In this document: one piece after another, positions 8,228 to 40,299 of the stretch
Layout of the letters: each line of letters starts with the position of its first letter
Numbering within the stretch: the first letter of the stretch is position 1
NCBI RefSeq assembly: GCF_029892285.1
Contig: NZ_JARXVM010000027.1
Span: forward strand, 1-55,946
From: Rhizobium sp. SG_E_25_P2
Lineage (GTDB): Bacteria > Pseudomonadota > Alphaproteobacteria > Rhizobiales > Rhizobiaceae
DNA length: 55,946 nt
Reading direction: 5' to 3'
Notes under the pieces: model-generated
Databases searched by the model: none
The model's input: only the letters and a program-made list of their open reading frames with translations
What the model was told of the DNA's origin: nothing
Made by a program: the position numbers and the translations under genes

Positions 8228-9532
8228 TTGGGACCACAGGTCGATCCTGTCACGTCTGCCGAGACGCCGCCAGCGAAGGCCGATGTGGTCATCGTGGGCG
8301 GCGGCATTATCGGGCTGAGCACGGCGCTTTTCTTGGCGCGCCGCGGTCTCTTCGTGGTCGTCTCCGAAAAGGGCGATTTCGTCGGCGAGCAATCGAGCCG
8401 CAACTGGGGCTGGGTGCGGCGCATGGGCCGCGACCCGCGCGAATTGCCGCTGATCGTCGAGTCCATGCGGATCTGGGACGACATGAATATGCTGGTTGGC
8501 GCCGATGTCGGCTTTCGCCGGACCGGCATTCTCTATCTCTGCGACCAAGAAGACGATGTCGCACATCATGTCGATTGGCTGACGCGCGCGGGCGATTTCG
8601 CCTTTGACACCAGGCTGGTGCGGGGCGCTGAACTCGCCGATCTTCTGCCCGGCGCGGCGAGAAACTGGCATGCCGCGCTTTATACAGCGAGCGACGGTCG
8701 CGCAGAGCCGCAAAAAGCAGCATCGGCGATTGCGCGAGCAGCGGCGGCTGACGGCGCTGTCCTTATGGCCAATTGCGCCGTCCGTGATATCGAGACCACC
8801 AATGGACGGGTCTCTGCAGTCTTAACCGAACATGGGCGCATTGACTGTCACACGGTAGTTGTCGCGGGCGGCGTCTGGTCGACGAAACTGCTGCGTCGTT
8901 TGAATGTGAGACTGCCGCAACTCGGCGTTCGCGCCTCGGTGCTGCGCACCAGCCCAGTCTCGGGCGGCCCCGATGGCGCAGCCTGGTGCAAGGACTTCGC
9001 CTATCGCAAGCGACTGGACGGCGGCTATACGATCGCCGACGGCAGCCAAAACCGCCATGATATCGGCGCCGACAGCTTCCGCTATTTCGCAGATTTCGTG
9101 CCAATGATGCGGCAGGAATGGGGAAGCTTCAGCCTGGGCTTACCCTCTCCGCTGACCGTGGACATCAAGGGGGAAACAGAGTTTGAACGGATGCGCACGC
9201 TCGACCCCGCGCCCTTGAACCATCGCCTGACACAGACATTTTCAGACCTGCAAAAAGCTTTCCCGATTTTTCGGGGCGCCAAAGTCGAGCAAAGCTGGGC
9301 TGGCATGATCGATGCGACACCCGATGCGATCCCGGTCATTTCCAAGGTGCAGTCGCTGCCGGGATTGGTGATCGCGACGGGATTTTCCGGCCATGGCTTC
9401 GGCATCGGACCCGGCGCGGGCAAGCTCGCCGCCGATCTGGTCACCGGCGATGCGCCGCTCGTTGACCCCACAGCCTTTCGCTACGAACGCTTCATTGACG
9501 GAACGCGGCCAAAGCCGACGACGGGGGTGTGA
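8228..9532 (+). CDS. FAD-dependent amine/D-amino-acid oxidase family protein (DAO superfamily)
   Basis: The protein has 434 residues with the DAO fold: an N-terminal GGGIIG FAD motif (about 21-26), the family segment SSRNWGWVRRMGRDPRELP (about 57-75), and a C-terminal GFSGHGFGIGPGAG that closes the FAD site. It should oxidise the amine of an amino acid or N-substituted amino acid to imine or keto acid. The start is TTG at 8228, preceded by AGGAGG at 5 nt; no ATG fits better. It lies 18 nt after the 2-oxoglutarate oxygenase gene. There is no signal peptide, so it is cytoplasmic. The substrate is unknown; an imported opine-like or methylated amino acid would fit. Confidence 0.87.
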   Translation: MGPQVDPVTSAETPPAKADVVIVGGGIIGLSTALFLARRGLFVVVSEKGDFVGEQSSRNWGWVRRMGRDPRELPLIVESMRIWDDMNMLVGADVGFRRTGILYLCDQEDDVAHHVDWLTRAGDFAFDTRLVRGAELADLLPGAARNWHAALYTASDGRAEPQKAASAIARAAAADGAVLMANCAVRDIETTNGRVSAVLTEHGRIDCHTVVVAGGVWSTKLLRRLNVRLPQLGVRASVLRTSPVSGGPDGAAWCKDFAYRKRLDGGYTIADGSQNRHDIGADSFRYFADFVPMMRQEWGSFSLGLPSPLTVDIKGETEFERMRTLDPAPLNHRLTQTFSDLQKAFPIFRGAKVEQSWAGMIDATPDAIPVISKVQSLPGLVIATGFSGHGFGIGPGAGKLAADLVTGDAPLVDPTAFRYERFIDGTRPKPTTGV

Positions 9533-9641
9533 AGCAATCGAGAATTTCCGTCCAGCGGGTCTGGACCGGAAGCCAGCGGGACCAGGCTTAAAGCGGAACC
9601 CGGCGGCGGGAGTAACAACAAAGAAGAGAGGAACGACTGAC

Positions 9642-10499
9642 ATGAAATCTTATCTGACCTATGCAGGCCTCGGCCTCGCCGCCATGATGACGGTCTGGAG
9701 CGGCAACGCTGTTTCGGCTGACATCAAGGCTTCACCCGACGTGGCGAGCAGCGGCAAGCTTTCCGTCGCCAACACGCTGGATTACGCGCCCTTCGAATAT
9801 CTCCACGCCGACGGCAAGCAGACCGGCATCATCGTCGAACTCGCCGGCGAAGTCGCCAAGCTTGTGAAGGCGGAGCTCGATATCCAGCGCACGCCCTTCC
9901 CGTCGATGATCCCGGGCCTGGCCTCCGGCCGTTTCAGAATCGCCTGGGAAACCTTCTCCGCCAATCCCGACCGCCTCAAGCAGGTCGATTTCGTGATGTT
10001 CATTAAGGCCGGCATCGCCGCCTCGACTTCGCCGGAAAAGAAGGACAGCTTTACCGGCGACATGCCGCTCTGCGGCAAGCGCATCGGCGTCTCCGCCGGC
10101 AGCGCCTCCGACTTCCTTGTCGACAAGCTCAGCAAGGATTGCGCCGACAAGGGCCAGGAAGACATCAAGAAGTCCGTCTTCAACTCCTCGACCGACATCG
10201 TCCAGGCTGTGCTGTCCGACCGTGTCGACGCCCGTATGGACGACGCCACCGCATCCAGCTATTTCGAAGTCACCAGCAAGGGCCAGCTGGTCGTGCTGCC
10301 GACGCTTTATGACGTTGCGCCGCTCGGCCTCGCCATCGCCAAGGATGACCCGGCGACCGCCGAGATGATGGTGTCCGCGCTTGCGGAGCTATTCAAGAAC
10401 GGCAAGTATCAGGAGATCTTGAACAAATACGGCATGGGCGCCTATGCGATCAAGGAGCCCTATTTCGTCAACACGATGGAATCGCTCCGCGCGGAATAA
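9642..10499 (+). CDS. ABC transporter periplasmic substrate-binding protein, polar amino acid type
   Basis: The protein has 285 residues. The N-terminal 26 or so form a Sec signal peptide with likely cleavage after VSA. The mature part is an SBP_bac_3 (HisJ/GlnH-like) bilobal binding protein, with the typical opening NTLDYAPFEYLHADGKQTGI and the hinge-region DAPMDD-like segment RVDARMDDATAS. It captures an amino acid or a related cation in the periplasm for the permease and ATPase encoded next. The ATG at 9642 was preferred over longer in-frame extensions because the signal peptide starts there and a purine-rich GAGAGGAA lies upstream. A hairpin follows the gene. Confidence 0.9.
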   Translation: MKSYLTYAGLGLAAMMTVWSGNAVSADIKASPDVASSGKLSVANTLDYAPFEYLHADGKQTGIIVELAGEVAKLVKAELDIQRTPFPSMIPGLASGRFRIAWETFSANPDRLKQVDFVMFIKAGIAASTSPEKKDSFTGDMPLCGKRIGVSAGSASDFLVDKLSKDCADKGQEDIKKSVFNSSTDIVQAVLSDRVDARMDDATASSYFEVTSKGQLVVLPTLYDVAPLGLAIAKDDPATAEMMVSALAELFKNGKYQEILNKYGMGAYAIKEPYFVNTMESLRAE

Positions 10500-26412: not shown

Positions 26413-27336
26413 TCATTTGGTGATGCTGAGTTCGCCAGGCGCCGAAGGCATGGCGCGGGTGGTCGAGCTGGTCGCGACCAGAAGTCCGAGAGTGAGCACG
26501 TAAGGCGCGGCGTAGAAGAGATAGTAGCCGCTGGTGACGCCGACCGATTGCAGCGCCGGCCCGAGTGCTCCAGCGCCGCCGAACAGCAGCGAGGCATAAA
26601 GGCAGTTAACAGGATTCCAGCGGGCGAAAATGACAAGCGCAACCGCCATCAGGCCCTGTCCGGAGGAAATGCCTTCATTCCAGCTGCCGGGATAATAGAG
26701 CGAGAGATAGGCTCCGCCGACGCCGGCCAGAGCGCCGCCCGCCGCCGTGCTCCACAGCCGCACACGGTTGACGTTGATTCCGAGCGCGCGGGCGGCGTCG
26801 GCGCTGTCGCCGGTGACCCTTATGGTCAGCCCGATTCGGGTGTTTTTCAGCATCCAGGCGGTTGCAAAAGCCAGAACGATCCCAATGAGGAAAAGCACAT
26901 TGACGTTGAGAGCCGCCTGAACCTGCGGCAGGCCGGACAAGAAGCCGAGTGGTATTGCGGGGAGATCAGGCGCGACAGGCTGCACATAGGGCTTGCCGAA
27001 GAAGAAGGCGAGGCCGGTCCCGAAGATCATCAGCGCGATGCCGATGGCGATGTCGTTGACACGCGGCAGCTTGCAGATCCAGCCATGCAACAGGCCGAAC
27101 AGCAGGCCGGAAAAGGCGGCGGCCATGACGCCCAGCCAGGGCGATCCTGTGTGATAGGCCACCGCATAGCCGCTCAAAGCGCCGAAGACGAGCGTGCCTT
27201 CCAGCCCGAGATTGATGCGTCCGGCGCGTTCCGTCAGGCATTCGCCTATGGAGACGAAGATGAACGGCGTGGACACGCGGATCGCGCCGCCGAGGATGGC
27301 GAGGGGCACGCCCCACAGACCGATATCGTCAGTCAT
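26413..27336 (-). CDS. ABC transporter permease (simple sugar/nucleoside type, second subunit)
   Basis: The protein has 307 residues and about eight to nine membrane spans. The BPD_transp_2 features are [20 protein letters not shown] near residue 32 and [20 protein letters not shown] in the middle. It forms the channel with the next permease. The ATG at 27336 overlaps the stop of that gene (ATGA). An in-frame extension far to the right runs through the neighbouring permease in another frame and is not real. Confidence 0.9.
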
Positions 27337-28442
27337 TTCTGCCTCCGCTCGAAGATAGACATGAACCGCAGCCGACCCTGAAGCGTGTCGGACAGGAGGA
27401 TGGCGATGAAGACCATGCCCTCCAACACCAGAACCGTCGCATCCGGCATGTCCATGCGTCTTTGAACCAGCCCGCTCGATGCTTCGAAGCCGGCGAAAAG
27501 AATGGCCGCGGGGATGATCGCCAGACCGTTGTGGCGGGCGAGAAAGGCAATGAGGATGCCGGTGTAGCCATAGCCCGCCGCAAGCGATGCATTGGCCGAA
27601 CCATGGACCGCCGCCACCTCGAACATGCCGGCAAGGCCCGCAAAAGCGCCGCCGAGGGCTGTGAAGCCGATGGCGAGGACGCCCGCCGGAAGTCCCTGGA
27701 TCTGCGCGGCGCGAACATTTCCGCCGACGATCCGGGCTGCAAAGCCAAAGGTTGTGCGTTCGATCAGCACCCAACTCACAATACAGGCGATGATGCCGAC
27801 GGCAAGGCCCCAATGCACGCCAACGCCGGGGATCTCGCCGATGCGCCATGCTTCGGGCAGCGGCGCGGTGGACGGTTTGTTGAGGCTTGCGGGATCGCGC
27901 AGCGGGCCTTCGATGAGGTGGTTCATGAGCGCGATAGCGATATAGGCCATCAACAGGCTCGAAATGGTCTCGTTGACGCCGCGCAGCCGCCGGAGCGCCC
28001 CGACGCCGCCAATCCATACGCCGCCGACGACCATGGCCGCGATCGCCATAAAGGCGATGCCGATGGGCGCCGGCATTGACGGCGCTAGCATGGCGACGGC
28101 GCCCGCCGCCACACCGCCCAGAACAATCGCGCCTTCGCCGCCGATAATGACGAGGCCGAGCCTTGCAGGCAGCGCCACGCAGAGCGCCGCCAGCAGCAGA
28201 GGCGCTGCGCGCGCCAGTGTGTTCGTCCACGAAAAGGCCGTCCCGAAACCAGCCTTGAAGACCAGCAGGTAGAAGTCGACGGGCGATTTGCCGAGCACTG
28301 CGAGAAAGGCGGCGAATGCCGCCATCCCGGCCAACAGCGCCGCCAGCGGCAGGATCGCTGCCTCGATGCGGCGGGCTCCGGCTTCACTCAGGAAGCCCGC
28401 CCGCCCGGTGGATGACGCCACAAGTTCGGCCTGCATGCTCAT
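27333..28442 (-). CDS. ABC transporter permease (simple sugar/nucleoside type, first subunit)
   Basis: The protein has 369 residues and about nine to ten membrane spans. Typical segments are LPARLGLVIIGGEGAIVLGG and ERTTFGFAARIVGGNVRAAQIQG. The start is the ATG at 28442, because GGAGG lies 7 nt before. It lies 29 nt after the BMP-family binding-protein gene and is coupled to the second permease. Importers of this set (BMP protein, two RbsC-like permeases, double ATPase) usually take up nucleosides or purine/urea-like heterocycles. Confidence 0.9.
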   Translation of the reverse strand: MSMQAELVASSTGRAGFLSEAGARRIEAAILPLAALLAGMAAFAAFLAVLGKSPVDFYLLVFKAGFGTAFSWTNTLARAAPLLLAALCVALPARLGLVIIGGEGAIVLGGVAAGAVAMLAPSMPAPIGIAFMAIAAMVVGGVWIGGVGALRRLRGVNETISSLLMAYIAIALMNHLIEGPLRDPASLNKPSTAPLPEAWRIGEIPGVGVHWGLAVGIIACIVSWVLIERTTFGFAARIVGGNVRAAQIQGLPAGVLAIGFTALGGAFAGLAGMFEVAAVHGSANASLAAGYGYTGILIAFLARHNGLAIIPAAILFAGFEASSGLVQRRMDMPDATVLVLEGMVFIAILLSDTLQGRLRFMSIFERRQK

Positions 28443-28471
28443 GGTCTGCCCTCCAGTCTTCAGATGCCGTG

Positions 28472-29596
28472 TCAGGAGGTGGAGCCGACAACGCCTTCGA
28501 CCAGATAGCTCATGCTTTCCAGCGCCACATCCGTTTCGACGAAGGCCTGTCCCTCTGTCGCCACGACATTGCCCTTGTTGTCCTTGAGCGGGCCCTTGAT
28601 GGCGGCAAAGCCGCCCTTCATAATCTCGGCCTTCACCGCTTCGAACTGAGTGCGCGCCTGTTCCGAAACGGCCGGGCCAAGCGGGCTCATCTTGATGAAG
28701 CCATCGGCGATGCCGCCGCGCACAAAGTTTTCGATCGTCCCGCCGGCAAGCGTCGTCTTGACCATGTCGGTATAGACCTTGCCCCAGTTCCATTCAGCGC
28801 CCGTCAGATATTTTTCAGGCGCAAGCGCGCTCTGGTTGGCGTGATAGCCGCACAGAAACATGCCGCGGCCTGCGCCTGTTTCCATGACCACCTTGGGGCC
28901 GTCCACATGACAGGTGATCACGTCGACGCCCTGATCGGCCAGAGCATTCGTAGCCTCTGCCTCCTTGACGGCGAGCGACCACTCGCCGGTAAAGATGACA
29001 TGGCACGTGATCGTGGGGTCGACGGCGCGAGCGCCGAGCAGGAAGGAGTTGATGTTCAACAGCACCTGCGGAATGGGTTTGGCGGCCACGAAACCGATTT
29101 TCTTGGTTTTTGTCGCATGGCCTGCGGCAATCCCGTTCAGATACTGACCCATGCCGATATAGCCGAAATAGGATCCGACATTCTTGGGCTTGTCCGGCGT
29201 CCACAGGCCGCCGCAATGCTCGAAGCGCACGGCGGGATTCTTCGGGGCCACGGCCAGGATATGCGGATCGAAATAGCCGAAGGATGTCGGAAACAGCAGT
29301 GTTGCGCCGTCAAAGCCGATCATGCTTTCCATGGTCTTCTGGACGTCGACGGTTTCGGGAACCTGTTCCTCTTCGACGACAGTGACGCCTTCCATCGCCT
29401 TGACGGCTGCGGCCCCCTGGGCATGGGACTGATTGTAGCCGAAGTCGTCTTTCGGACCGACATAAATGAAGCCGACGGTGAGCCCGGCGGCGCGCGCCAT
29501 TCCTGCGGGCAGGATGCCGGAAAGGGCGGCTGCGCCGGCCATGCCGGCCGTGCTCTGCAGAAACTGGCGACGATTGGGCATCAGGATCTTGGACAT
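28472..29596 (-). CDS. BMP-family ABC substrate-binding protein with Tat signal
   Basis: The protein has 374 residues. The N-terminus has a twin-arginine motif, NRRQFLQSTAGMAGAAA, and a cleavage region ARAAG, so a folded protein is likely exported by Tat. The mature part opens with LTVGFIYVGPKDDFGYNQSH, the BMP (basic membrane protein/Med) signature. The family binds nucleosides and related ring compounds. Its operon with biuret-type hydrolases suggests a ureide ligand. The ATG at 29596 has GGGGAA upstream. It is the first gene of the leftward operon, divergent from a LysR gene. Confidence 0.9.
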   Translation of the reverse strand: MSKILMPNRRQFLQSTAGMAGAAALSGILPAGMARAAGLTVGFIYVGPKDDFGYNQSHAQGAAAVKAMEGVTVVEEEQVPETVDVQKTMESMIGFDGATLLFPTSFGYFDPHILAVAPKNPAVRFEHCGGLWTPDKPKNVGSYFGYIGMGQYLNGIAAGHATKTKKIGFVAAKPIPQVLLNINSFLLGARAVDPTITCHVIFTGEWSLAVKEAEATNALADQGVDVITCHVDGPKVVMETGAGRGMFLCGYHANQSALAPEKYLTGAEWNWGKVYTDMVKTTLAGGTIENFVRGGIADGFIKMSPLGPAVSEQARTQFEAVKAEIMKGGFAAIKGPLKDNKGNVVATEGQAFVETDVALESMSYLVEGVVGSTS

Positions 29597-29724
29597 GCGA
29601 AAGTTCCCCACTTTTCGTTAGACCGGTTGCGCGTTTATGGCTCCGAGCGGCCCGCGCCTTTGAATTTCGCCGTCAGTAATCCAGATAGACGCGCTTCTGT
29701 CTTGTGCTATGTTTTGGCTGGACC

Positions 29725-30806: not shown

Positions 30807-32210
30807 TCAGAAAAAGGTTCCGGCCATTTCAGGAGAGCCCGCAAGAGCGTGCTCCATGAACTCGAGCGCGCTCTTGAGGGTATCGCGTTTTATTGGCCCG
30901 CCGAGGCAAATGCGCACGGCTTCGTCGGCCTGGCCATCAACAGTAAATGCGTCACTTGCGACCACGCCAATGCCGGAGTTACGCATTTGGGTCCCGAAGG
31001 TCGAACGAGTCCATCCGTTGGTCAACGGCAACCATATATTGAAGCTGATTGGGTCGCTTCTGTAGCTGCCTGCCGGCAGCACTTTCGCCACCAGGGCCTG
31101 GCGAGCGGCAGCTTCGGCGCGGATGAAGCGCAGGATACTGTCCGCTGTGCCATCCTCTATCCAGCGCGTGGCCAGGGCGGTGGAGAGCGGTGACGCCATG
31201 ACGCTGGCCGCGCGCATGGCGCTGGCGAAGGGCCACGCCGCCCTGGTGTCGGGCACGACAACATAGGCCAGCCGCAGGCCGGCGCCGATGCATTTTGCAA
31301 GTCCACCGATATGCCAGGTCAGGTCGGGCGCCATGGCCGCAAGCGGAGCCGGGCCGTGCAGCGGAATAAACCCATACGCATCGTCCTCGACGATCGGGAC
31401 GTGATATTTGCGGGCGACAGCGCAGATTTCCTCGCGCCGCTTTTCCGGTATCGTCAGCGTCATCGGGTTTTGAAGCGTCGGATTGAGGTAGAGCGCCTTC
31501 GGTTTGCCGGTTTTGCACATCTCGGCAAACGCAGCGGGAATGACGCCCTCATCGTCCATCGGCAACCCCACAAGATTAAGGCGAAGCTGAGCGGCAATCG
31601 AGCGCATGCCGGGATAGGTTATATTCTCCGACAGCACCAACTCACCCGGCTTTGCCAACAGCCCGAAAATCGCCAAAAGCGCCGGATGCGCCCCGGGCGT
31701 CACGAAGATACGTTCTTGCGAGGGAACCAGTCCTCGGCGACTAAGCCATGAAGCGGCGGCTTCCTTGTCCATTCCGGCGCCGCCAAAACCCTGATAGCGC
31801 AGCAGCGGGATCAAATTGGTGGATACGGCGGAGAGCCCCTCCTGCATACGCGCCAGAAGATCCGGATCATCCGGTTCCGGCGGCATATTCATCGAAAAAT
31901 CGACGACGGAGGTGCGTCTCGCATCCAGCGCGGCCTGCGAGACGAAACCGCGCCGTTCCTTTTCGGGGCCGCCCGTGACGAAAGTTCCGCGTCCGACATG
32001 GGGGGCAACCAGTCCTCGCTTTTGCGCCTCGACATAGCCGCGCGCAACGGTGGTGAAATCGATCGCCAAGCGTTTCGCAAGCTCTCTTTGTGGCGGCAAC
32101 CTGTCGCCAACCAGCAGCTTGCCGCTCTTCAGATCCATCTCGATGACGTCGGCGATCGCCATGTAGCGTGGGCCGCTGCTGCGGGAGAGGTCTGGAAGCC
32201 AGGATTTCAT
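30807..32210 (-). CDS. MocR-family regulator (GntR winged helix fused to aminotransferase fold)
   Basis: The protein has 467 residues. An N-terminal GntR winged helix (about 15-80; GDRLPPQRELAKRLAIDFTTVARGYVEAQ, given here as a location) joins a class I aminotransferase-like domain. That domain has the PLP aspartate in VEDDAYGFIPL and the Schiff-base lysine in GLAKCIGAGLRLAYVV. MocR proteins (PdxR, GabR, TauR) sense an amine, amino acid or PLP through the bound cofactor and often bind direct repeats. It is divergent from the nitrilase cluster, and repeated TTGAATGCA sites lie between them. The start has only a weak GATGAG site. A role as regulator of the cluster is inferred. Confidence 0.87.
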   Translation of the reverse strand: MKSWLPDLSRSSGPRYMAIADVIEMDLKSGKLLVGDRLPPQRELAKRLAIDFTTVARGYVEAQKRGLVAPHVGRGTFVTGGPEKERRGFVSQAALDARRTSVVDFSMNMPPEPDDPDLLARMQEGLSAVSTNLIPLLRYQGFGGAGMDKEAAASWLSRRGLVPSQERIFVTPGAHPALLAIFGLLAKPGELVLSENITYPGMRSIAAQLRLNLVGLPMDDEGVIPAAFAEMCKTGKPKALYLNPTLQNPMTLTIPEKRREEICAVARKYHVPIVEDDAYGFIPLHGPAPLAAMAPDLTWHIGGLAKCIGAGLRLAYVVVPDTRAAWPFASAMRAASVMASPLSTALATRWIEDGTADSILRFIRAEAAARQALVAKVLPAGSYRSDPISFNIWLPLTNGWTRSTFGTQMRNSGIGVVASDAFTVDGQADEAVRICLGGPIKRDTLKSALEFMEHALAGSPEMAGTFF

Positions 32211-32481: not shown

Positions 32482-32497
32482 TGGCACACCCATTGCA
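32482..32497 (+). promoter_or_regulatory. Sigma-54 (RpoN) promoter of the Nit1C cluster
   Basis: The sequence TGGCACACCCATTGCA is TGGCAC-N5-TTGCA, a near-perfect -24/-12 element, 51 nt upstream of the first cluster gene. RpoN control agrees with the nitrogen-starvation response known for the homologous clusters. No gene for an enhancer-binding activator is adjacent, so a global one such as NtrC is likely; I did not find a clear NtrC site. Confidence 0.85.
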
Positions 32498-32548: not shown

Positions 32549-33031
32549 ATGCCCGCTATCACCGCCCCCGCCCACGCTGATGGAGATTTCTTCGTCGACT
32601 ATGAGGAAAAGGTATTCGAAGATGTCCAGGCGATGGAAGGTGAAAAAGCCCTCATCACCTTCCACACCGTCGCCTTCGAAGGCTCGATCGGCCTTGTCAA
32701 CCTGCTCCAGGCCAAGCGTCTGAAGCGAAAGGGTTATGACACCTCCGTACTGCTCTATGGCCCGGGCGTTACGCTCGGCATCCAGCGCGGTTTCCCCAAA
32801 CTCGGTTCCGAAGCTTTCCCCGGACATCTCAACTTCAACAACCAGATCAAGGGCTTTCTGGAGGAAGGCGGCAAGGTCTATGCCTGCCGGTTTGCCCTTC
32901 AGGCGCTTTATGGCCACGGTGAGCCGGCCCTCATTCCCGGCATCACTCCCATCAGCCCGCTGGATGTGCTCGATCTCATGTTGATCCACCGCCGCGCGGG
33001 CGCTGTCATCCTGGACACCTGGACGCTGTAA
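32549..33031 (+). CDS. nitB: MSMEG_0572/Sll0783-family nitrogen-starvation protein (Nit1C)
   Basis: The protein has 160 residues and no known catalytic motif. I recognise the family from the sequence around [20 protein letters not shown] and [20 protein letters not shown]: the Sll0783/MSMEG_0572 proteins that head Nit1C clusters and rise under nitrogen starvation. The fold looks like a DsrE-type small alpha/beta protein (conserved YGPGV), but this is a guess. The start is the ATG at 32549, with AGGAG 7 nt before. It is first in the cluster, directly behind the sigma-54 promoter. The symbol follows the Nit1C naming as I recall it. Confidence 0.82.
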
Positions 33032-33113
33032 CCCCACTCATCCGCGTCCATCTTGGCGCGTTCGGAAGGCGGGGTCCGCTCCGCCTCCTTCACCTCAATT
33101 CAAGGAAATCGTC

Positions 33114-34157
33114 ATGGCTGACAACAGGACAGTTCGGGCCGCCGCCGCACAGATCGCGCCGGATCTCACCTCAGGCGACAAGACGTTGACCCGGGTGCTT
33201 GAAACGATCCGCGAAGCCGCAGCCAAGGGCGCCGAACTGATCGTATTCCCGGAGACCTTCGTCCCCTGGTATCCCTATTTTTCCTTCGTCCTGCCGCCGG
33301 TCCTTTCCGGCCGCGAACATTTGCGGCTCTATGAGGAGGCGGTCACAGTTCCCAGTGCTGCGACCGACGCGGTAGCGGCAGCAGCCCGCGAAAACGGCAT
33401 GGTCGTTGCGCTCGGCGTCAATGAGCGGGATCATGGCACGCTCTACAACACCCAGCTCATCTTCGACGCCGACGGGACCCTTGTCCTCAAGCGGCGCAAG
33501 ATCACCCCTACTTTCCATGAGCGGATGATCTGGGGCCAAGGGGATGGCTCCGGCCTCAAGGTGGTCGACAGCAAGATCGGACGCATCGGCGCGCTCGCCT
33601 GCTGGGAACATTACAATCCCCTCGCCCGCTACGCGTTGATGGCGCAGCATGAGGAAATCCATGTCGCGCAATTCCCAGGCTCCATGGTCGGTCCGATCTT
33701 CGCCGACCAGATGGAAGTCACCATCCGCCATCATGCGCTGGAAAGCGGCTGTTTCGTCGTCAACGCCACCGGCTGGCTGATGGATGAGCAGATCCGAACC
33801 ATCACCCCGGACGAGGGCCTGCAGAAGGCCCTGCGCGGCGGCTGCATGACGGCGATCATCTCTCCGGAAGGCAAGCACCTGGCGCCGCCGATCACCGAGG
33901 GTGAAGGCATCCTGATTGCCGATCTCGACATGAGCCTGATCCTCAAACGCAAGCGGATGATGGATTCCGTGGGCCACTATGCGCGCCCGGAACTGTTGCA
34001 TCTCGTCATCAACGACCGCCCGGCAAACACGATGGTAGCCGCTCATCCTTTCCTCGAAACCGCACAGACAGGGAGCAATACCCATGGACACCAGACCCCA
34101 GCTTTCGACGGAAACCCTGATCAACGAATTGCAGTCGTTCGGCGCGAGGCTCGTTGA
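33114..34157 (+). CDS. nitC: Nit1-type nitrilase (Nit6803-like)
   Basis: The protein has 347 residues, the length of Synechocystis Nit6803 homologues. The catalytic triad is Glu47 ([12 protein letters not shown]), Lys129 ([11 protein letters not shown]) and Cys163 ([15 protein letters not shown]), with the nitrilase-type CWEHYNPL rather than an amidase motif. It hydrolyses a nitrile to acid and ammonia. In other bacteria the Nit1C cluster is linked to assimilation of cyanide as nitrogen source, and its natural substrate is probably a cyano compound made by or processed in the cluster. Its 3' end overlaps the radical SAM gene by 74 nt in another frame, an unusually long overlap. Confidence 0.92.
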
Positions 34158-35202
34158 TCCCAAGGCCGGCCACGAGAGCCGCCGCGGCGGCGCTGGCCCC
34201 TCCGATCACAAAGCGCTCACTATCGACGGCATGACGGTCATGGTCCCGGTGCACACGGCGCCCGCCTTCGAAAGCCCCTACCTTGTCGAAAGACCGGATG
34301 AAGCGGGTAACAGCCGCATCAGTCGTGACGGCCGGGTCATCGGCGAAGTCTCCTTCCCCCTGCGCCCCCGTTTTTACGAGCGCTCGACGGCAGACGGCAT
34401 TCCCTATTCACAGATCGCCGTACTGCACGGACGCGACGTGCTGGCAACCACCGTGTTGCAGACCTGTATACGCTACCAGAGCCGCACGAAAACCTGTCAA
34501 TTCTGCGCCATCGGCCAGTCGCTGGCGGCAGGACGTACTGTCGCCCACAAGACGCCGGCGCAGCTTGCCGAAGTCGCCAAGGCCGCCGTCGAGCTCGATG
34601 GCGTCAAGCATATGGTGATGACCACGGGCACGCCGAAGGGCGACGATCGGGGCGCTGCGGTGCTGGCGGACAGCGCTCGCGCCATCAAGGCGGCAGTGGA
34701 TATTCCCATTCAGGCGCAATGTGAGCCGCCGGAAGACGACATTTGGTTTTCACGCATGAAGGAAGCCGGAGTCGATGCGCTCGGCATGCATCTCGAAGTG
34801 GTGACGCCGGAGATCCGCGCCCGCATCATGCCGGGCAAGGCGCAGGTCGGCATCGAGAAATATATGGCGTCCTTCAAGACGGCGGTCCAAATATTCGGAC
34901 GTGGACAGGTCTCCACCTATATCCTCGCAGGCCTTGGCGACACACGCGAAGCCATCCTCGACATCTGCGAAAGGCTGGTGGCGACAGGCGTCTATCCCTT
35001 TGTCGTGCCCTTCGTGCCGATCTCGGGCACGCCGCTTGAAAGCCATCCCGCGCCAAAACCCGAATTCATGCACTCGATCCTCGGGCCCTTGTCGAAACTG
35101 CTTGTCCAAAGCGGCCTGAAAGCCGTGGACATCAAGGCCGGCTGTGGCAAATGCGGCGCCTGCTCCGCCCTTTCCACCTATGAAAGGATGCTGACCAAAT
35201 GA
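34084..35202 (+). CDS. nitD: MSMEG_0568-family radical SAM protein (Nit1C)
   Basis: The protein has 372 residues. The 4Fe-4S cluster ligands are Cys128, Cys138 and Cys141, in [18 protein letters not shown], spaced CX9CX2C instead of the usual CX3CX2C; this wide spacing is a mark of the family. A barrel follows, with [10 protein letters not shown] and [16 protein letters not shown] second group, Cys354, Cys357 and Cys360 (CGKCGAC), ends the protein and may hold another cluster. It probably rebuilds a carbon or nitrogen skeleton by radical chemistry; the substrate is not known. The ATG at 34084 lies inside the nitrilase gene and has GGGAG upstream. Confidence 0.9.
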
Positions 35203-35741
35203 TGATCGAACCCTTCTCGCCCTTCCGCACCAGCGAATTCCAGGTGAAGTTCGCGACATCGGCCTGGGAACGTAGCCAGGCCCATGCCCTTCGCCGGGAA
35301 GTATTCTGCCGTGAACAGCAAATTTTCCAGAACGACGACCGGGACGCGATCGACGATTCCGCCACCCCCATCGTTGCGCTTTCCATGCTCGGCGTTGCCG
35401 CCGACCAGGTGGTCGGCACAGTGCGCATCCATGAGGAACAGCCGGGTCTCTGGTGGGGTTCGCGCCTTGCCGTCCACGAGGATTTCCGCAAGATCGGCGC
35501 GCTCGGCGCCACGCTGATCCGGCTTGCCGTTTCCTCCGCCAATGCCATGGGTTGCCACACGTTCCTGGCCAATGTTCAGGTGCAGAACGGGTTGCTGTTT
35601 CGCCGCCTGCATTGGGATGTGGTCGAAGAATTCGAGATCTACGGCAAACCGCACTTGCGGATGCAGGCGGATCTCAGCTGGTATCCGCCTTGCGCCACGC
35701 CGGAGGCGGGTTTCGTGGCGCTCGCCAAACGGGCGGCATGA
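35199..35741 (+). CDS. nitE: MSMEG_0567/Sll0786-family GNAT N-acetyltransferase (Nit1C)
   Basis: The protein has 180 residues. It is a GNAT-fold protein: AHALRREVFCREQQIFQNDD is the N-terminal segment and GTVRIHEEQPGLWWGSRLAVHEDFRKIGALGATLI covers strand 4 and the acetyl-CoA loop (location about 75-110). It is expected to acylate an amine with acetyl-CoA or another acyl-CoA. It overlaps the radical SAM stop (ATGATG at 35199) and the following gene (ATGA), so translation is coupled. In mycobacteria this domain is fused to the AIR-synthase-like one; here they are separate genes. Confidence 0.88.
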   Translation: MMIEPFSPFRTSEFQVKFATSAWERSQAHALRREVFCREQQIFQNDDRDAIDDSATPIVALSMLGVAADQVVGTVRIHEEQPGLWWGSRLAVHEDFRKIGALGATLIRLAVSSANAMGCHTFLANVQVQNGLLFRRLHWDVVEEFEIYGKPHLRMQADLSWYPPCATPEAGFVALAKRAA

Positions 35742-36718
35742 CGATGGCGGATGTCGACCTCGCCGCGCTCGCAGAAAAGCTACGAGCCAGCAACGGGATC
35801 GCGGCCAAACACGATATTGGCGGCGTCACCGCGCGGCTCGGCGTCAAGGATAAGTCTGTCCCCGTGGGGGACGACTGCGCCGCCCTCCCTGACGGGGACG
35901 GCTACCTGCTGTTCGCCATCGAAGGCTTCATGAACGCCTTCGTCGCCGCTGATCCCTGGTTTGCCGGCTGGTGCGGCGTCATGGTCAATATCTCCGACGT
36001 GGTCGCCATGGGCGGCCGGCCAACCGCCGTGGTCGATGCTGTCTGGGCCGATGGCGAGGCGGGCGCAGCTCCGATACTGGACGGCATGCGGGCAGCGGCA
36101 GAGGCTTATGGCGTGCCGATTGTCGGCGGTCACACCAATATCCGCACCGACCGGGGCCAGTTGTCCGTCGCCATTGTCGGGCGCGCAAAACGCCTGCTGA
36201 CCAGCTTCGACGCTCGCCCCGGCGACGTGCTGGTTGCCGCCGTCGATCATCGCGGCCGCTACCGCGCCCCCTTCGACAACTGGGAAGCCGCGACCGATGC
36301 GCCGGCTGACAGGCTGCGCGGCGATCTCGACATCCTGCCGCAGATCGCGGAAGCAGGGCTTTGTCTTGCCGCCAAGGACATCAGCCAGGGCGGGATCATC
36401 GGCACGGCGATCATGCTGGCCGAATGTTCCGGTGTCGGCGTCGATATCGAAGTTGCAGCCATCCCAATGCCCTCCGGCGTCAGCCTCGACCGCTGGCTGG
36501 GCACCTTTCCGAGCTTTGGCTATCTGCTGTCCGTTGCGCCTGACAATGTCAATGCTGTGCTCGACCGGTTTGCGGGCCGCGCGATTTCCGCCGCCATTAT
36601 TGGAGCTGTGCAGCCTGGCAGCGCCGTCTCGATCACGGACGGATCCAGGCGCATCCTTATCCGCGACCATGCGACAACACCCCTCATGCAGCTTGGGCCG
36701 ACGGAGGATTGCCGATGA
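35738..36718 (+). CDS. nitF: Sll0787-family AIR synthase-like (PurM fold) protein (Nit1C)
   Basis: The protein has 326 residues with the PurM/AIR-synthase layout: the ATP/Mg segment VPVGDDCAALPDGDGYLLFAIEG (location about 39-60), NISDVVAMGGRPTA, and GGHTNIRTDRGQLSVAIVG. PurM-fold enzymes phosphorylate an amide or carboxyl oxygen to drive attack by nitrogen or another nucleophile. Here it probably builds a C-N bond or a nitrile/amidine-type group in the unknown cluster product. The start at 35738 overlaps the GNAT stop; the ATG at 35744 is an alternative. It is coupled to the glycosyltransferase gene by ATGA. Confidence 0.88.
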   Translation: MTMADVDLAALAEKLRASNGIAAKHDIGGVTARLGVKDKSVPVGDDCAALPDGDGYLLFAIEGFMNAFVAADPWFAGWCGVMVNISDVVAMGGRPTAVVDAVWADGEAGAAPILDGMRAAAEAYGVPIVGGHTNIRTDRGQLSVAIVGRAKRLLTSFDARPGDVLVAAVDHRGRYRAPFDNWEAATDAPADRLRGDLDILPQIAEAGLCLAAKDISQGGIIGTAIMLAECSGVGVDIEVAAIPMPSGVSLDRWLGTFPSFGYLLSVAPDNVNAVLDRFAGRAISAAIIGAVQPGSAVSITDGSRRILIRDHATTPLMQLGPTEDCR

Positions 36719-37872
36719 TCCGGCCGCTTCGCATCGCCATGCTGACCCATTCCACCAATCCGCGCGGCGGCGTCGTGCATGCGATGCAGCTTTCCGAGGC
36801 GTTGACAGCCCAAGGTCACGCGCTGACGCTGCACGCGCCTGACGTCAAGGGCGGAGGTTTCTTCCGCACTCCCGCCTGTAAGACGGCCTGCCTGCAGGTC
36901 GGGCCAGCTTTAGCGGATATGACGGCCATGGTGGAGCAGCGTATTGCCGATTATGTCAGCTATTTCGAACCCGCGGCGCATCGAGATTTCGACGTCTTCC
37001 ATGCCCATGACGGCATTTCGGGCAATGCTCTGGCGACGATGAAGGAGCGGGGCCTGATTTCGGGTTTCGTGCGCACCGTCCACCACATCGATCAGTTTGA
37101 AGATCCGCGCCTCATGGCCCTTCAGGACCGTTCGATCCGATGCGCCGATGCCTTCTTCTCCGTCAGCAAGATATGGCGGGACGTCTTGCGCGACAGCCAC
37201 GGCGTGGATGCAACCGTGGTCGGCAACGGTGTCGACACCAACCGTTTCGCCCCCACCTGGAGCGGCGAACAGACCGCGCTGCGCGATCGGATAGGCCTTC
37301 CCGCCGGCCCGATTTTCTTGAGCATTGGTGGAATCGAGGCGCGCAAGAACACGCTCGGGATTCTAGATGCATTTCGACAGCTTCGCGCCGTCAGGCCGGA
37401 TGCGCAACTGGTTATCGCCGGAGGAGTGTCGTTGCTCGACCACCGGGATTATCAGGACGAGTTCCAGTCCCATTTGCGGGCGCTGCACGACGATGCCAGC
37501 GCGGTTCACTTGGTTGGCGCCGTGTCCGATGATGATATGCCGAACCTCTACCGGCTCGCCGACGCGCTGGTGTTCCCCTCGCTGAAAGAGGGCTTCGGTC
37601 TCGTCGTTCTAGAGGCCCTGGCGAGCGGCGTTCCCGCCATCGTGCCATCGATTGCGCCTTTTACCGAATATCTGGGCCGCGACGACGCCCTCTGGTGCGA
37701 TCCCCGCCACTCGGCTTCGATTGCCGAAGCCATGGCCCTGGGTCTGGTTCCGCAGATCCGCGAACGTGTCATCCCGCGCGGCATGGAGGTCGCGGGGCGC
37801 TTCACATGGCGGCGGGTCGCGGAATCCCATCTTTCCACTTACACACGATTGAAGGAGGCAGTTCATGCCTGA
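36715..37872 (+). CDS. MSMEG_0565-family glycosyltransferase (GT4, Nit1C-associated)
   Basis: The protein has 385 residues and the GT-B fold of family 4. The N-terminal loop is NPRGGVVHAMQLSEAL and the nucleotide-sugar donor motif is FPSLKEGFGLVVLEALASG (EX7E type). It should move a sugar from a nucleotide donor to an acceptor in the cytoplasm. It has no membrane segment. Such a gene is found in the mycobacterial version of the cluster and lies here between the AIR-synthase-like and MSMEG_0570-like genes, overlapping both (4 and 8 nt). This suggests the cluster product, or its stored form, is glycosylated. Confidence 0.88.
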   Translation: MIRPLRIAMLTHSTNPRGGVVHAMQLSEALTAQGHALTLHAPDVKGGGFFRTPACKTACLQVGPALADMTAMVEQRIADYVSYFEPAAHRDFDVFHAHDGISGNALATMKERGLISGFVRTVHHIDQFEDPRLMALQDRSIRCADAFFSVSKIWRDVLRDSHGVDATVVGNGVDTNRFAPTWSGEQTALRDRIGLPAGPIFLSIGGIEARKNTLGILDAFRQLRAVRPDAQLVIAGGVSLLDHRDYQDEFQSHLRALHDDASAVHLVGAVSDDDMPNLYRLADALVFPSLKEGFGLVVLEALASGVPAIVPSIAPFTEYLGRDDALWCDPRHSASIAEAMALGLVPQIRERVIPRGMEVAGRFTWRRVAESHLSTYTRLKEAVHA

Positions 37873-38152
37873 GATCCGCTTTGTCATCACCTGGCCGGAT
37901 GGCGAGGAAGAGACCTGTTATTCACCCTCCCTGGTCATTCGCGACTTTTTCACCGAGGGTGAAAGTTATCCGGTGGCGGATTTTGTCGACCGCAGCCGAA
38001 AGGCGCTCACCATCGCCAGTGATCGGGTCGCCGCAAAATACGGATTTGCCTGTTCTGCGGCACACGACCAACTCGCCCGCATCGAAGCCGCAGCCCTCCC
38101 CTTTCTGGAGCGCGCGGACGCCCGCGTCCGCTGCGAGACCTTCATCCTTTGA
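37865..38152 (+). CDS. nitG: MSMEG_0570-family small nitrogen-starvation protein (Nit1C)
   Basis: The protein has 95 residues and no catalytic motif I can name. The opening IRFVITWPDGEEETCYSPS and the helix VADFVDRSRKALTIASDRVAAKYG match what I know of the MSMEG_0570 family found only in Nit1C clusters. Because of its size and constant linkage it may be a carrier or an enzyme subunit; this is a guess. It overlaps the glycosyltransferase gene by 8 nt and ends 11 nt before the flavoprotein gene. Confidence 0.8.
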   Translation: MPEIRFVITWPDGEEETCYSPSLVIRDFFTEGESYPVADFVDRSRKALTIASDRVAAKYGFACSAAHDQLARIEAAALPFLERADARVRCETFIL

Positions 38153-38163
38153 AAGGACCCAAG

Positions 38164-39435
38164 ATGACCCGATCCCTGAAATCCCATTATAGCGCCGTTG
38201 TGGTGGGTGGCGGCCAGGCAGGCCTCTCCGCCAGCCATTACCTCAAGAAACACGGGCTCGACCATGTCGTGTTCGAAAAGAAGACCGTGGCCCATAAATG
38301 GAAGGACGAGCGCTGGGATGCGTTTTGCCTGGTCACCCCGAACTGGCAATGCCAACTACCCGACCATCCCTATGATGGCGCCGATCCGCATGGCTTCATG
38401 GTGAAGGATGAGATCGTCGCTTATGTCGATCGCTTCGTCAAAAAGGTCGACGCGCCGGTTTTCGAGGGCGTGAGCGTTACCGCGCTGGAGAAGTTCGGCG
38501 GTCTTTTCCGCGTCGAATCGTCAGCCGGGACCGTCACGACCGACAACGTCATCCTCGCCACCAGCCTCTACAGCCAGCCCTTCGCGCCGCGTTCCGCGGA
38601 ACGTCTCCCCGATGAAATCACCCAGATCCACACGGCCAACTACCGCAATCCCGCGCAACTGCCGCCGGGCGCCGTCATCGTCGTCGGCTCCGGCCAGTCC
38701 GGCTGCCAGATCGCCGAAGACCTGCATCTGGCCGGCCGCAAGGTGCATATGGTCACCGGCAACGCCCCGCGCTGCGCCCGCTTCTACCGCGGCCGAGACG
38801 TCGTCGACTGGCTGGCGGATATCGGCCAATACGATATCACCGTCGCCCATAACGGCATGTCTAAAAAGAAGCACGACACCAACCACTATCTGACCGGTCG
38901 CGATGGCGGGCGCGATATCGACCTTAGAAAATTCGCGCTGGAAGGCATGGCCCTTTATGGACGGATGGCGGGCGTTTCCAAAGGGAAAATGCTGTTCGAG
39001 CCAAACCTCAAGAGCAATCTCGATGGAGCCGACCGCGTCTATAACGGCATCAACGCGCTTATCGATCGCCATATCGCGGAAAAGGGCATCGACGCGCCGG
39101 CCGGCAGCCCTTATTTCCCGCTCTGGGAACCGGAGCACGAAACGACAGAACTGGATCTCGAAGCTGAAGGCGTCACATCCGTCATCTGGGCGACAGGCTT
39201 TACGCCCGATTGGTCCTATGTTGGATTGCCTATCTTCGACGGGACCGGATATCCCGTCCAGCGACGTGGGGTAACCGGGATGGACGGCGTCTATGTACTG
39301 GGCCTTCCCTGGCTTTGGACCTGGGGATCCGGTCGGTTCCTCGCCGTTGGCAAGGACGCCGAATATGTGGTCGACCATCTGGCGACGCGGCTGGAGCGGG
39401 CACGGCGTCCGCTGAAACAAGCGGCGAACGGATAA
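38164..39435 (+). CDS. nitH: MSMEG_0569-family FAD-dependent oxidoreductase (Nit1C)
   Basis: The protein has 423 residues. The N-terminal FAD motif [20 protein letters not shown] and a second fold [21 protein letters not shown] (NADPH) give a class B monooxygenase/YUCCA-like architecture; the linker [18 protein letters not shown] differs from the usual FMO FxGxxxHSxxY motif. It is expected to N- or C-oxygenate a cluster intermediate, for example an amine on the way to an oxime or nitrile. AAAGGA lies upstream of the ATG at 38164. Among Nit1C genes it is usually last; here one more gene follows 3 nt later. Confidence 0.9.
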
Positions 39436-39438
39436 GCG

Positions 39439-40299
39439 ATGAACCTCGCTTTCCGGCCCGCTATTTTGGACGAACCATCGAGCCGCGATCTTATGGACCG
39501 CGCGCTCGACCCGCACCTGCTCGTCGGCATGCCGCATCTGACGCCGCACGGCCTGTCGGAAACCTGGCTGATGAAGGAGTTGGGACATCGGCATTGGTTG
39601 ATGCTGGCGCGCGATCTCGGCATGGACGACGCCGATTTCCGCACTGTCGATGGAGAGCAAGCCTATGCGGCCATCTGTGCGACTTCGCTATGCGAAGCGC
39701 GCCTGGAATGCGTGAGGGCAAACAGCATCCTGACCATCCGTTCAGAGCTGTCGACCGTCTCGCGCACCCAGATCGCGACGAGCCACGACCTCTTCGCCGA
39801 AGGGAGCAAAATCGGACGGGTGGAATTGATCTCCGCCTTCGTTCGCAGGGAAATTCACGGGTGCAATCATTCTCTTGCACGCGCAGCGGTGCTAACGTCA
39901 GAGGCGGCCCCCTACAAATTCAACCAACTCGCAAAGACCGCCGCAGATATTCGCAATTTACGGATAGCGACCTATTGGGGCCTGCCAGTCACAGCCAAGG
40001 AGCCCCTGCGATCATTTCGATACGATCCTGCGGTCTCTCAGGAGTTCAATGGCGCCGGTCTTTTCTATTTTGCGGAATTCCAGGCTCTTGCGGAGCGCGC
40101 TCTCGACGCCTGGCTTCCCGAACGCGAACCGTTGAAACGGCGGGATGTCTTTTTTCTCGGTAATATAGAAAGGAGCGAAGGCCTCATCTTTGACTTGGTC
40201 GCAGCGTCAGACAACGGCGACGTGTTCAATGGCCAGATCAGACGGCAATCCGGTGATGTGATCGCGAAACTTTTCATGTCTTCCAAGGAACTGCCATGA
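39439..40299 (+). CDS. LnmK-like double-hotdog protein (Pnap_2097-type), end of the Nit1C operon
   Basis: The protein has 286 residues. The segment LVGMPHLTPHGLSETWLMKELGHRHW and, near the C-terminus, RRDVFFLGNIERSEGLIFDL recall the LnmK family, named after the bifunctional acyltransferase/decarboxylase of leinamycin biosynthesis, which has two hotdog domains. Such proteins act on acyl-CoA or carrier-bound acyl groups. The gene begins 3 nt after the flavoprotein stop, so it belongs to the operon, although it is not among the seven core Nit1C genes. It strengthens the view that the cluster makes an acylated metabolite. Family recall is moderate and the function is inferred. Confidence 0.68.
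   Translation: MNLAFRPAILDEPSSRDLMDRALDPHLLVGMPHLTPHGLSETWLMKELGHRHWLMLARDLGMDDADFRTVDGEQAYAAICATSLCEARLECVRANSILTIRSELSTVSRTQIATSHDLFAEGSKIGRVELISAFVRREIHGCNHSLARAAVLTSEAAPYKFNQLAKTAADIRNLRIATYWGLPVTAKEPLRSFRYDPAVSQEFNGAGLFYFAEFQALAERALDAWLPEREPLKRRDVFFLGNIERSEGLIFDLVAASDNGDVFNGQIRRQSGDVIAKLFMSSKELP

Follow-up and report, generated by a model that had tools for sequence, protein, structure and literature searches.

We describe a nine-gene operon on contig 27 of the 5.56 Mb genome of Rhizobium sp. SG_E_25_P2 and, in particular, its last gene, which encodes a relative of LnmK, an enzyme of leinamycin biosynthesis. The analysed stretch of DNA, referred to as the window, is this contig (NZ_JARXVM010000027.1, 55,946 nucleotides, forward strand), and all position numbers are those of the whole window. 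Between 32549 and 40299 the list of open reading frames (ORFs) of the window contains nine ORFs, all on the + strand, which we designate genes A to I in order. They comprise a Nit1C nitrilase cluster, a glycosyltransferase gene and the LnmK-like gene (gene I). The new, testable point of the analysis is that in Burkholderiales gene I is tied to a gene for methylmalonyl-coenzyme A (CoA) mutase (MCM).

All nine proteins exceed the curated cut-off of their own NCBIfam model in a profile search. The gene starts given below were picked by us from the ORF list, those of genes E and F being set at ATGA overlaps; the profile search of gene E used 35747-36718 and that of gene F began at 36709.

32549..33031, + strand: gene A, MSMEG_0572/Sll0783 family (TIGR04044, 274.6 bits, cut-off 109.85)
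33114..34157, + strand: gene B, Nit6803-family nitrilase (TIGR04048, 589.3 bits, cut-off 502.6; PDB 3wuy, E 1.2e-152)
34084..35202, + strand: gene C, MSMEG_0568-family radical SAM protein (TIGR04043, 610.1 bits, cut-off 303.7)
35199..35741, + strand: gene D, MSMEG_0567-family GNAT N-acyltransferase (TIGR04045, 239.7 bits, cut-off 68.45)
35738..36718, + strand: gene E, sll0787-family AIR synthase-like protein, PurM fold (TIGR04049, 465.9 bits, cut-off 321.3)
36715..37872, + strand: gene F, MSMEG_0565-family GT4 glycosyltransferase (TIGR04047, 516.3 bits, cut-off 259.85)
37865..38152, + strand: gene G, small protein of the MSMEG_0570 family (TIGR04042, 132.4 bits, cut-off 79.85)
38164..39435, + strand: gene H, MSMEG_0569-family flavin-dependent oxidoreductase (TIGR04046, 655.1 bits, cut-off 498.35)
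39439..40299, + strand: gene I, Pnap_2097/LnmK-like double-hotdog protein (TIGR04099, 287.1 bits; TIGR04098, 227.3 bits; LnmK hits in Foldseek; LnmK profile match)

Adjacent genes overlap at five of the eight junctions (B/C by 74 bases, C/D, D/E and E/F by 4 bases each, F/G by 8) and are separated by short gaps at the other three (82 bases between A and B, 11 between G and H, 3 between H and I), in agreement with the initial annotation, which had described nine packed and mostly overlapping genes. The seven families of Nit1C are all there, in the published order and on a single strand. Relatives of gene I were collected by comparing a nine-sequence profile with species genomes, and the best 80 of 271 relatives were studied as loci (numbered with L; sampled genomes are numbered with G). 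The complete nine-gene set was found in 72 of these 80 loci and, since it recurs whole so often, it is no chance arrangement. Six of the eight incomplete loci end at contig edges (L048, L049, L050, L055, L075, L120); of the other two, L104 is without genes A, F, G and H nearby and L118 without D to G. In L126 gene H has been relocated between C and D. Gene I is the last of the nine in the examined loci, and the nearest named copies of the window operon are rhizobial. The laboratory strain Rhizobium johnstonii 3841 (L056) has the operon as well.

Gene I as a relative of LnmK

The initial annotation had proposed that the last gene is LnmK-like, and hidden Markov models, a sequence profile and the predicted fold all agree with this assignment. 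Gene I scores well above the curated cut-offs of TIGR04099 (Pnap_2097 family, cut-off 125) and TIGR04098 (LnmK family, domain cut-off 100). Pfam gives no match to it at E 0.01, and a search of the PDB with the single sequence gave nothing convincing; a profile of nine relatives of gene I matches LnmK chains with E 6e-12. The AlphaFold2 model of the protein has a predicted local distance difference test score (pLDDT) of 82.9, and the first seven Foldseek hits of this model are the seven LnmK entries, ahead of acyl-ACP (acyl carrier protein) thioesterases, with 4hzo at the top (E 5e-15, template-modelling score 0.72). The model thus predicts a double hotdog fold with LnmK as the closest solved fold.

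The likeness to LnmK (structures 4HZN/4HZO/4HZP and 6X7L-6X7P) comprises the double hotdog, a tyrosine, a loop asparagine and membership of TIGR04098. Tyr76 (Y76) of gene I is aligned to the tyrosine at chain index 62 of LnmK 6x7l, which we take to be a key residue, and N204 is aligned to the asparagine of the D-V-N-G-V-G loop of LnmK; in the model of gene I this loop (201-208) is poorly predicted, with pLDDT <50. Among 129 relatives of gene I, Y76 and W53 are conserved in all 129, H52 in 128 and N204 in 125; of the four rows lacking N204, L143 and L166 are copies with an interrupted frame, and L194 and L176 are fragments produced by script trimming. The differences from LnmK are a low identity of 17-18% in the Foldseek alignment, the sequence GHRHW at the position of GDWTW in LnmK, the Nit1C context and the lack of a carrier protein nearby.

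According to the accessible text of PMC8666670, LnmK decarboxylates via its loop asparagine, as MadB does via Asn45, and the same paper cites work whose title gives LnmK a specificity for (2R)-methylmalonyl-CoA. The malonyl-ACP decarboxylases MadA and MadB treated there are hotdog proteins with a catalytic loop asparagine, like gene I, and MadA joins the hotdog decarboxylase to a GNAT domain; they differ from gene I in being single hotdogs of Pfam 09500. Judging from its sequence, gene I is likely an acyltransferase/decarboxylase. A thioesterase was considered as a candidate function and set aside, since asparagine replaces the aspartate of the 4k00-type loop in what is a weak alignment (E 0.21).

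The initial annotation was right that the LnmK-like gene is not one of the core genes, but the gene is already a named and widespread accessory, annotated by NCBI in relatives as 'Pnap_2097 family protein'. The TIGR04099 model is typed as 'hypothetical equivalog', and no paper naming the Pnap_2097 family was found in the open-access literature, subscription papers being mostly outside this search.

Distribution of gene I and its coupling to methylmalonyl-CoA mutase

Because the 80 loci are the nearest relatives of gene I, additional genomes were sampled, namely 101 genomes of relatives, 398 genomes across the phylum and 250 genomes of Burkholderiales. Matches above the TIGR04099 cut-off occur in 6 of the 101, 6 of the 398 and 2 of the 250 genomes. 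These amount to 13 distinct genomes, 11 of which (the window counted) carry gene I beside Nit1C genes; in G217 and G361, at about 131 bits, the gene does not adjoin Nit1C. The Nit1C markers are more widely found, with TIGR04048 above its cut-off in 16 of the 398 phylum genomes and TIGR04044 in 41 of 397 genomes of the order Rhizobiales and 11 of the 250 Burkholderiales. Gene I is present in 24 of the 40 usable Nit1C clusters of the order (the window counted and the cut piece L135 left out), in none of the seven phylum-sample clusters that lie outside the order, and in 2 of 11 in Burkholderiales. These counts indicate that gene I mostly implies Nit1C and not the reverse, and the expected co-occurrence of LnmK-like genes with Nit1C nitrilases is borne out both by the 80 loci and by the sampled genomes.

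The glycosyltransferase, which the initial annotation had counted as an extension of the cluster, does not share this status. Nit1C with the glycosyltransferase included has been in print since 2005 and, as far as PMC1199592 could be consulted, the gene lies between the AIR synthase and MSMEG_0570 genes in Burkholderia and Rubrivivax, just as in the window, which also shares the seven Nit1C genes in the order published there. Beyond the text consulted there, the window has the LnmK-like ninth gene, a divergent MocR gene and a site of sigma-54 type whose position is conserved. We also considered the glycosyltransferase and gene I as a linked tailoring pair and found no association over the 40 clusters of the order (both genes in 20, gene F only in 13, gene I only in 4, neither in 3; Fisher p=1).

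Where it occurs, gene I is under purifying selection, with ratios of nonsynonymous to synonymous substitution rates (dN/dS) of 0.08-0.34 in 11 locus pairs. It is at the same time the most divergent of the nine genes (mean distance 0.54 vs 0.14-0.38 for the others in 72 loci), with distances that track those of the other operon genes (Spearman 0.55-0.82). On a tree of the radical SAM protein from 47 clusters, the presence of gene I needs 8 changes compared with 15.9 after shuffling, and none of 500 shuffles gave a value as low; a single origin that would make gene I a clade marker is unsupported. A remnant of gene I is found in L159, and the frames in L143 and L166, two of the 24 copies counted in the order, are broken, possibly by assembly errors. 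Gene I is thus an accessory that was gained or lost repeatedly and is selected where present, a genuine but optional part of Nit1C. Patchy presence, high divergence and degraded copies are also what would be seen if the cluster were an ordinary Nit1C and gene I an accessory that drifts fast, such as a thioesterase, has a minor role and is simply carried along. We regard this as distinctly unlikely in view of the purifying selection, the retained last position, the conserved Tyr, His, Trp and Asn, the asparagine in place of the 4k00 aspartate (weak alignment, as stated above) and the operon-linked MCM found in some relatives.

No gene downstream of gene I is conserved in more than 11 of the 80 loci when ORFs of at least 90 amino acids are considered, a limit at which small genes are missed, and inspection by eye of 23 loci without gene I revealed no recurrent substitute gene after gene H. 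Occasional neighbors were seen. In L091 (Rhizobium hainanense) a chemotaxis-receptor gene (8535-9986; MCP signal domain, PAS) lies between the flavoprotein gene and gene I, and a chemotaxis-receptor gene is also nearby in Caballeronia L186. An extra ORF of secreted appearance (by eye) occupies the same place in L153 (8628-9680, no Pfam match) and L158 (8804-9742). Nit1C with gene I is found on plasmids in Agrobacterium and Burkholderia (L051, L181, L182, L188, L202), of which L181, L182 and L202 are typed conjugative, and a DUF983 gene is near Nit1C and gene I on plasmids of Tabrizicola, Alloyangia and Methylocystis (L183, L187, L193).

On plasmids of Paraburkholderia sp. FT54 and Caballeronia zhejiangensis the gene following Pnap_2097 is annotated as methylmalonyl-CoA mutase. 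A search of plasmids with this MCM gave 12 records with at least 59% identity, the next being at most 52% identical (best 40 of 357 records), and gene I adjoins MCM in all 12, in 10 as seen from the sequence and in two from coordinates. A 4-base overlap links the stop of gene I with an MCM start in all 10 fetched betaproteobacterial (Burkholderiaceae) plasmid loci and in genome G851, and this start is the annotated one in the four plasmid loci that have annotation; in G977 MCM begins 74-125 bases after gene I. The MCM proteins of L186 and L184 score 955 and 1004 bits on NF006944 (cut-off 876), and that of G851 scores 873.3, which is 2.7 under the cut-off. The nearest structures of the plasmid proteins are human and bacterial methylmalonyl-CoA mutases. 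All 12 retain the tyrosine of RQYAG/RQYTG and the arginine, presumably the substrate-side residues, together with the DGHDRG cobalamin motif. By these sequence features, the gene next to gene I in Burkholderiales is a mutase proper.

Among 55 genomes with Nit1C, MCM is present in all 26 with gene I (25 above the cut-off) and in 17 of the 29 without it (Fisher p 0.00014, relatedness ignored). By group, MCM is present in 15 of 16 such genomes from the order, 2 of 7 from the phylum sample and 0 of 6 further Burkholderiales (G945 left out). Within Burkholderiales alone, MCM is found in both Nit1C genomes with gene I and in none of the eight without it (Fisher p 0.022, again ignoring relatedness), against a base rate of 10 in 100 Burkholderiales genomes above the cut-off; in the two genomes with gene I the MCM is the one adjoining it and there is no second strong match. 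Thirty named genomes carrying gene I, picked by us from the 80 for spread and overlapping the set of 55, all have MCM as well. The window host has its own MCM at C1:378078-380180, elsewhere than the operon.

A similar arrangement may already be in print. The Nit1C operon from the Red Sea Atlantis II brine (PMC4751646, 2016) has nine ORFs, given as hypothetical, nitrilase, radical SAM, acetyltransferase, AIR-related, hypothetical, FAD oxidoreductase, hypothetical and, in ninth place, mutase. The accessible part of that paper lists the eighth ORF ('conserved hypothetical') and the 'putative methylmalonyl-CoA mutase' without interpreting either; the eighth ORF is probably gene I. LnmK helps to install a unit derived from methylmalonyl-CoA (PMC9570651, as far as seen), and therefore an MCM partner makes the substrate expected for gene I.

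Control region and core genes

Two further features lie upstream of gene A.

32482..32496, + strand: sigma-54 (-24/-12) promoter-like site, TGGCAC-N5-TTGC, 67 bases upstream of the start codon of gene A
30807..32210, - strand: MocR-type regulator (GntR plus class I/II aminotransferase; Pfam PF00392 and PF00155), divergent from the operon

The exact -24/-12 consensus occurs within 300 bases upstream in 46 of 73 relatives, where 0.12 would be expected from shuffles. Within 150 bases, 45 of the 73 have an exact site and 24 a site with one mismatch; the reverse strand, taken as a control, gives 0 of 73 even with one mismatch allowed. Such a sigma-54-type sequence would be compatible with NtrC-type or NitA-type control. 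The regulator of the window reaches 460.4 bits on the NCBIfam model of EhuR, the ectoine-utilisation regulator, which is under the cut-off of 480. A MocR gene is divergent next to gene A in 59 of the 73 loci with room for it (11 gave no match and 3 have it elsewhere). Of the sampled clusters with room, 19 of 19 that carry gene I have it, as do 22 of 23 that lack gene I (the cut piece L135 being counted among the latter) and so, in the sampled proteobacteria, its presence follows Nit1C rather than gene I. The divergent position in Pseudomonas is taken by NitA, which belongs to the Fis family of sigma-54 regulators according to the available text of PMC11049912. The sigma-54 link is consequently common to Pseudomonas and Rhizobium-type clusters, although the neighbor differs.

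The conserved unit is therefore a little wider than nine genes, including the sigma-54 promoter-like site and the divergent MocR gene. The nine genes are best explained as a single operon, putatively for nitrogen starvation, in which the Nit1C core is accompanied by a glycosyltransferase that is common in such clusters and by gene I, an optional member of LnmK type. Further upstream in the window (26413-29611), the ORF translations, judged by eye, suggest a nucleoside-type ABC transporter with permeases and a BMP-type binding protein.

Some of the core proteins deserve comment. The family of gene A is DsrE-like according to the accessible portions of PMC6039565 and PMC3901256. In gene C the cluster motif is a variant, C-X9-C-X2-C, with C128, C138 and C141 in 75 of 75 sequences, and the C-terminus has an invariant C-X2-C-X2-C with C354, C357 and C360 in 76 of 76 (numbering of the L047 stretch). 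The predicted model of gene G has a pLDDT of 95.8, yet Foldseek found no match to it in the PDB (best E 1.5), and the model may possibly represent a new small fold. For the nitrilase, gene B, the nearest solved structure is 3wuy, which we take to be Nit6803.

The nitrilase also bears on an alternative role for gene I and MCM, in which both serve to recycle carbon from cyanide assimilation. In Pseudomonas, the substrate of the nitrilase NitC is a 2-hydroxynitrile that arises from cyanide (PMC11049912), and PMC6627978 names oxaloacetate in this connection, both as far as these sources were accessible. If the nitrilase made a hydroxymalonate from the cyanohydrin of a 2-oxoacid, for example 2-hydroxy-2-methylmalonate from pyruvate, gene I and MCM could process such methylmalonyl-type acids by decarboxylation to the level of lactate or by mutase conversion to a malyl thioester. 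This chemistry, which is of our own devising, would account for a nitrilase, a relative of a methylmalonyl-type decarboxylase and MCM in one operon. We nevertheless consider it very improbable, as none of the nine genes encodes a CoA ligase or CoA transferase, most core enzymes are left unexplained, and the cyanotroph cluster of Pseudomonas, given in the available text of PMC11049912 as nitA plus nitBCDEFGH, has no gene I.

Proposed role of gene I in the Nit1C pathway

The most likely reading of gene I, which we put at slightly less than an even chance, is that it makes the Nit1C product carry, or be built with, a propionate-derived arm from a methylmalonyl-type thioester. MCM would turn succinyl-CoA into (2R)-methylmalonyl-CoA, the foremost candidate among such thioesters; gene I would decarboxylate the thioester at the conserved Asn/Tyr site and pass the propionyl unit to an acceptor, from which the arm would enter the product. 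In Rhizobiaceae, including the window host, the housekeeping MCM encoded elsewhere in the genome would supply the substrate. MCM is uncommon in Burkholderiales, and there the gene I clusters examined, from two genomes and twelve plasmid records, bring an MCM of their own directly behind gene I. Within this reading the identity of the substrate is better supported than the transfer step.

Several observations weigh against a propionyl arm. The operon coupling of gene I and MCM is seen only in Burkholderiales: there is no MCM gene in the flanks of any of the 80 loci or among the immediate neighbors of the window operon, and the betaproteobacterial Methyloversatilis loci L113, L116 and L122 are without an adjacent MCM, which lies elsewhere in those genomes. 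Co-occurrence in Rhizobiales says little because MCM is nearly universal there, with or without gene I. The adjacency found on plasmids refers to the plasmid records, the chromosomes of those strains being outside the search for a second MCM. Gene I is dispensable, being absent from 16 of the 40 clusters of the order and interrupted in two of those counted. No other operon gene clearly has residues that track the presence of gene I. The GNAT gene D was considered as a partner that shifts with gene I, but its shuffle-corrected excess of 0.029 compares with 0.016-0.026 in six other genes, and we draw no inference from a signal that is only marginally the highest.

The carrier protein presents a further difficulty. 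LnmK has its own carrier protein (PMC9570651, in the part available), and a carrier is present in three of four examined gene I relatives outside Nit1C. L175 is a fusion of a hexapeptide acyltransferase, a carrier domain and an LnmK-like domain; in L176 an LnmK (246 bits) adjoins a carrier protein and HMG-CoA synthase; and in Thalassospira marina (L185) an acyl carrier protein lies about 7 kb away, along with an acyl-AMP ligase and a P450. In L174, on a contig of 9.5 kb, there is no carrier protein among the four neighboring ORFs scanned. A home-made carrier profile from three sequences found nothing in Nit1C loci and missed two of three known carriers in a leave-one-out trial, and as it was too insensitive the search was repeated with the Pfam model. 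In none of eight Nit1C genomes (G000, G203, G189, G580, G503, G070, G851, G977; in four of them matches sit on other contigs) is there a Pfam carrier match closer than 60 kb to gene I, and no carrier gene is annotated near gene I in 10 annotated Nit1C regions, whose gene tables are incomplete. The lack of a dedicated carrier nearby counts against propionyl transfer unless a housekeeping carrier serves gene I in its place.

The same lack of a carrier, together with an MCM adjoining a decarboxylase relative, suits a different explanation, in which gene I is a methylmalonyl-CoA decarboxylase or thioesterase-like valve that, with MCM, converts succinyl-CoA to propionyl-CoA and tunes CoA and redox pools in nitrogen starvation with no attachment to a product. 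The Sbm operon of Escherichia coli pairs MCM with the methylmalonyl-CoA decarboxylase ScpB and leads from succinyl-CoA to propionyl-CoA in this manner; it is a different operon, and ScpB is a crotonase-fold enzyme, unlike the hotdog protein of gene I. The GNAT core gene could consume the propionyl-CoA. The phenotypes in print are likewise of a redox type under nitrogen starvation in two phyla: as far as the sources could be consulted, the rise in NADPH/NADP fails in the sll0783 mutant (PMC3901256), and gpr increases both NADPH/NADP and the resistance to peroxide (PMC6039565), while in Pseudomonas the phenotype is cyanide use (PMC11049912). The redox phenotypes, however, come from clusters of other phyla, that of Mycobacterium smegmatis being the eight genes MSMEG_0565-0572 in the available text of PMC6039565. 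Moreover, the strong gene I members are tied to Nit1C in 11 of 13 sampled genomes, and a general valve needs no such tie. We consider a valve unlikely.

We thus return to a propionate-derived arm as our tentative preference. The initial annotation, which saw in the operon a biosynthetic route to an acylated and glycosylated metabolite, is partly supported, in that the operon-linked MCM of some relatives fits with gene I adding a defined acyl building block. It is possible, although we hold it as doubtful, that Nit1C as a whole is the biosynthesis of a nitrogen-starvation metabolite whose extended form is decorated by a carrier-free LnmK enzyme fed by a B12-dependent MCM, the mutase being operon-borne where the host has none.

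Nit1C spans phyla, is present in many soil bacteria and has been studied as a system of cyanide assimilation, of polyhydroxybutyrate (PHB) and redox control, and of peroxide resistance. The combination of an LnmK-type enzyme with MCM narrows the search for its product to a methylmalonyl- or propionyl-derived unit and is testable by isotope labelling. If Nit1C is indeed such a biosynthesis fed by MCM, it would tie the succinyl-CoA surplus of nitrogen-starved cells to the making of a metabolite, and a pathway that occurs in several phyla and is still unsolved would have its first building block.

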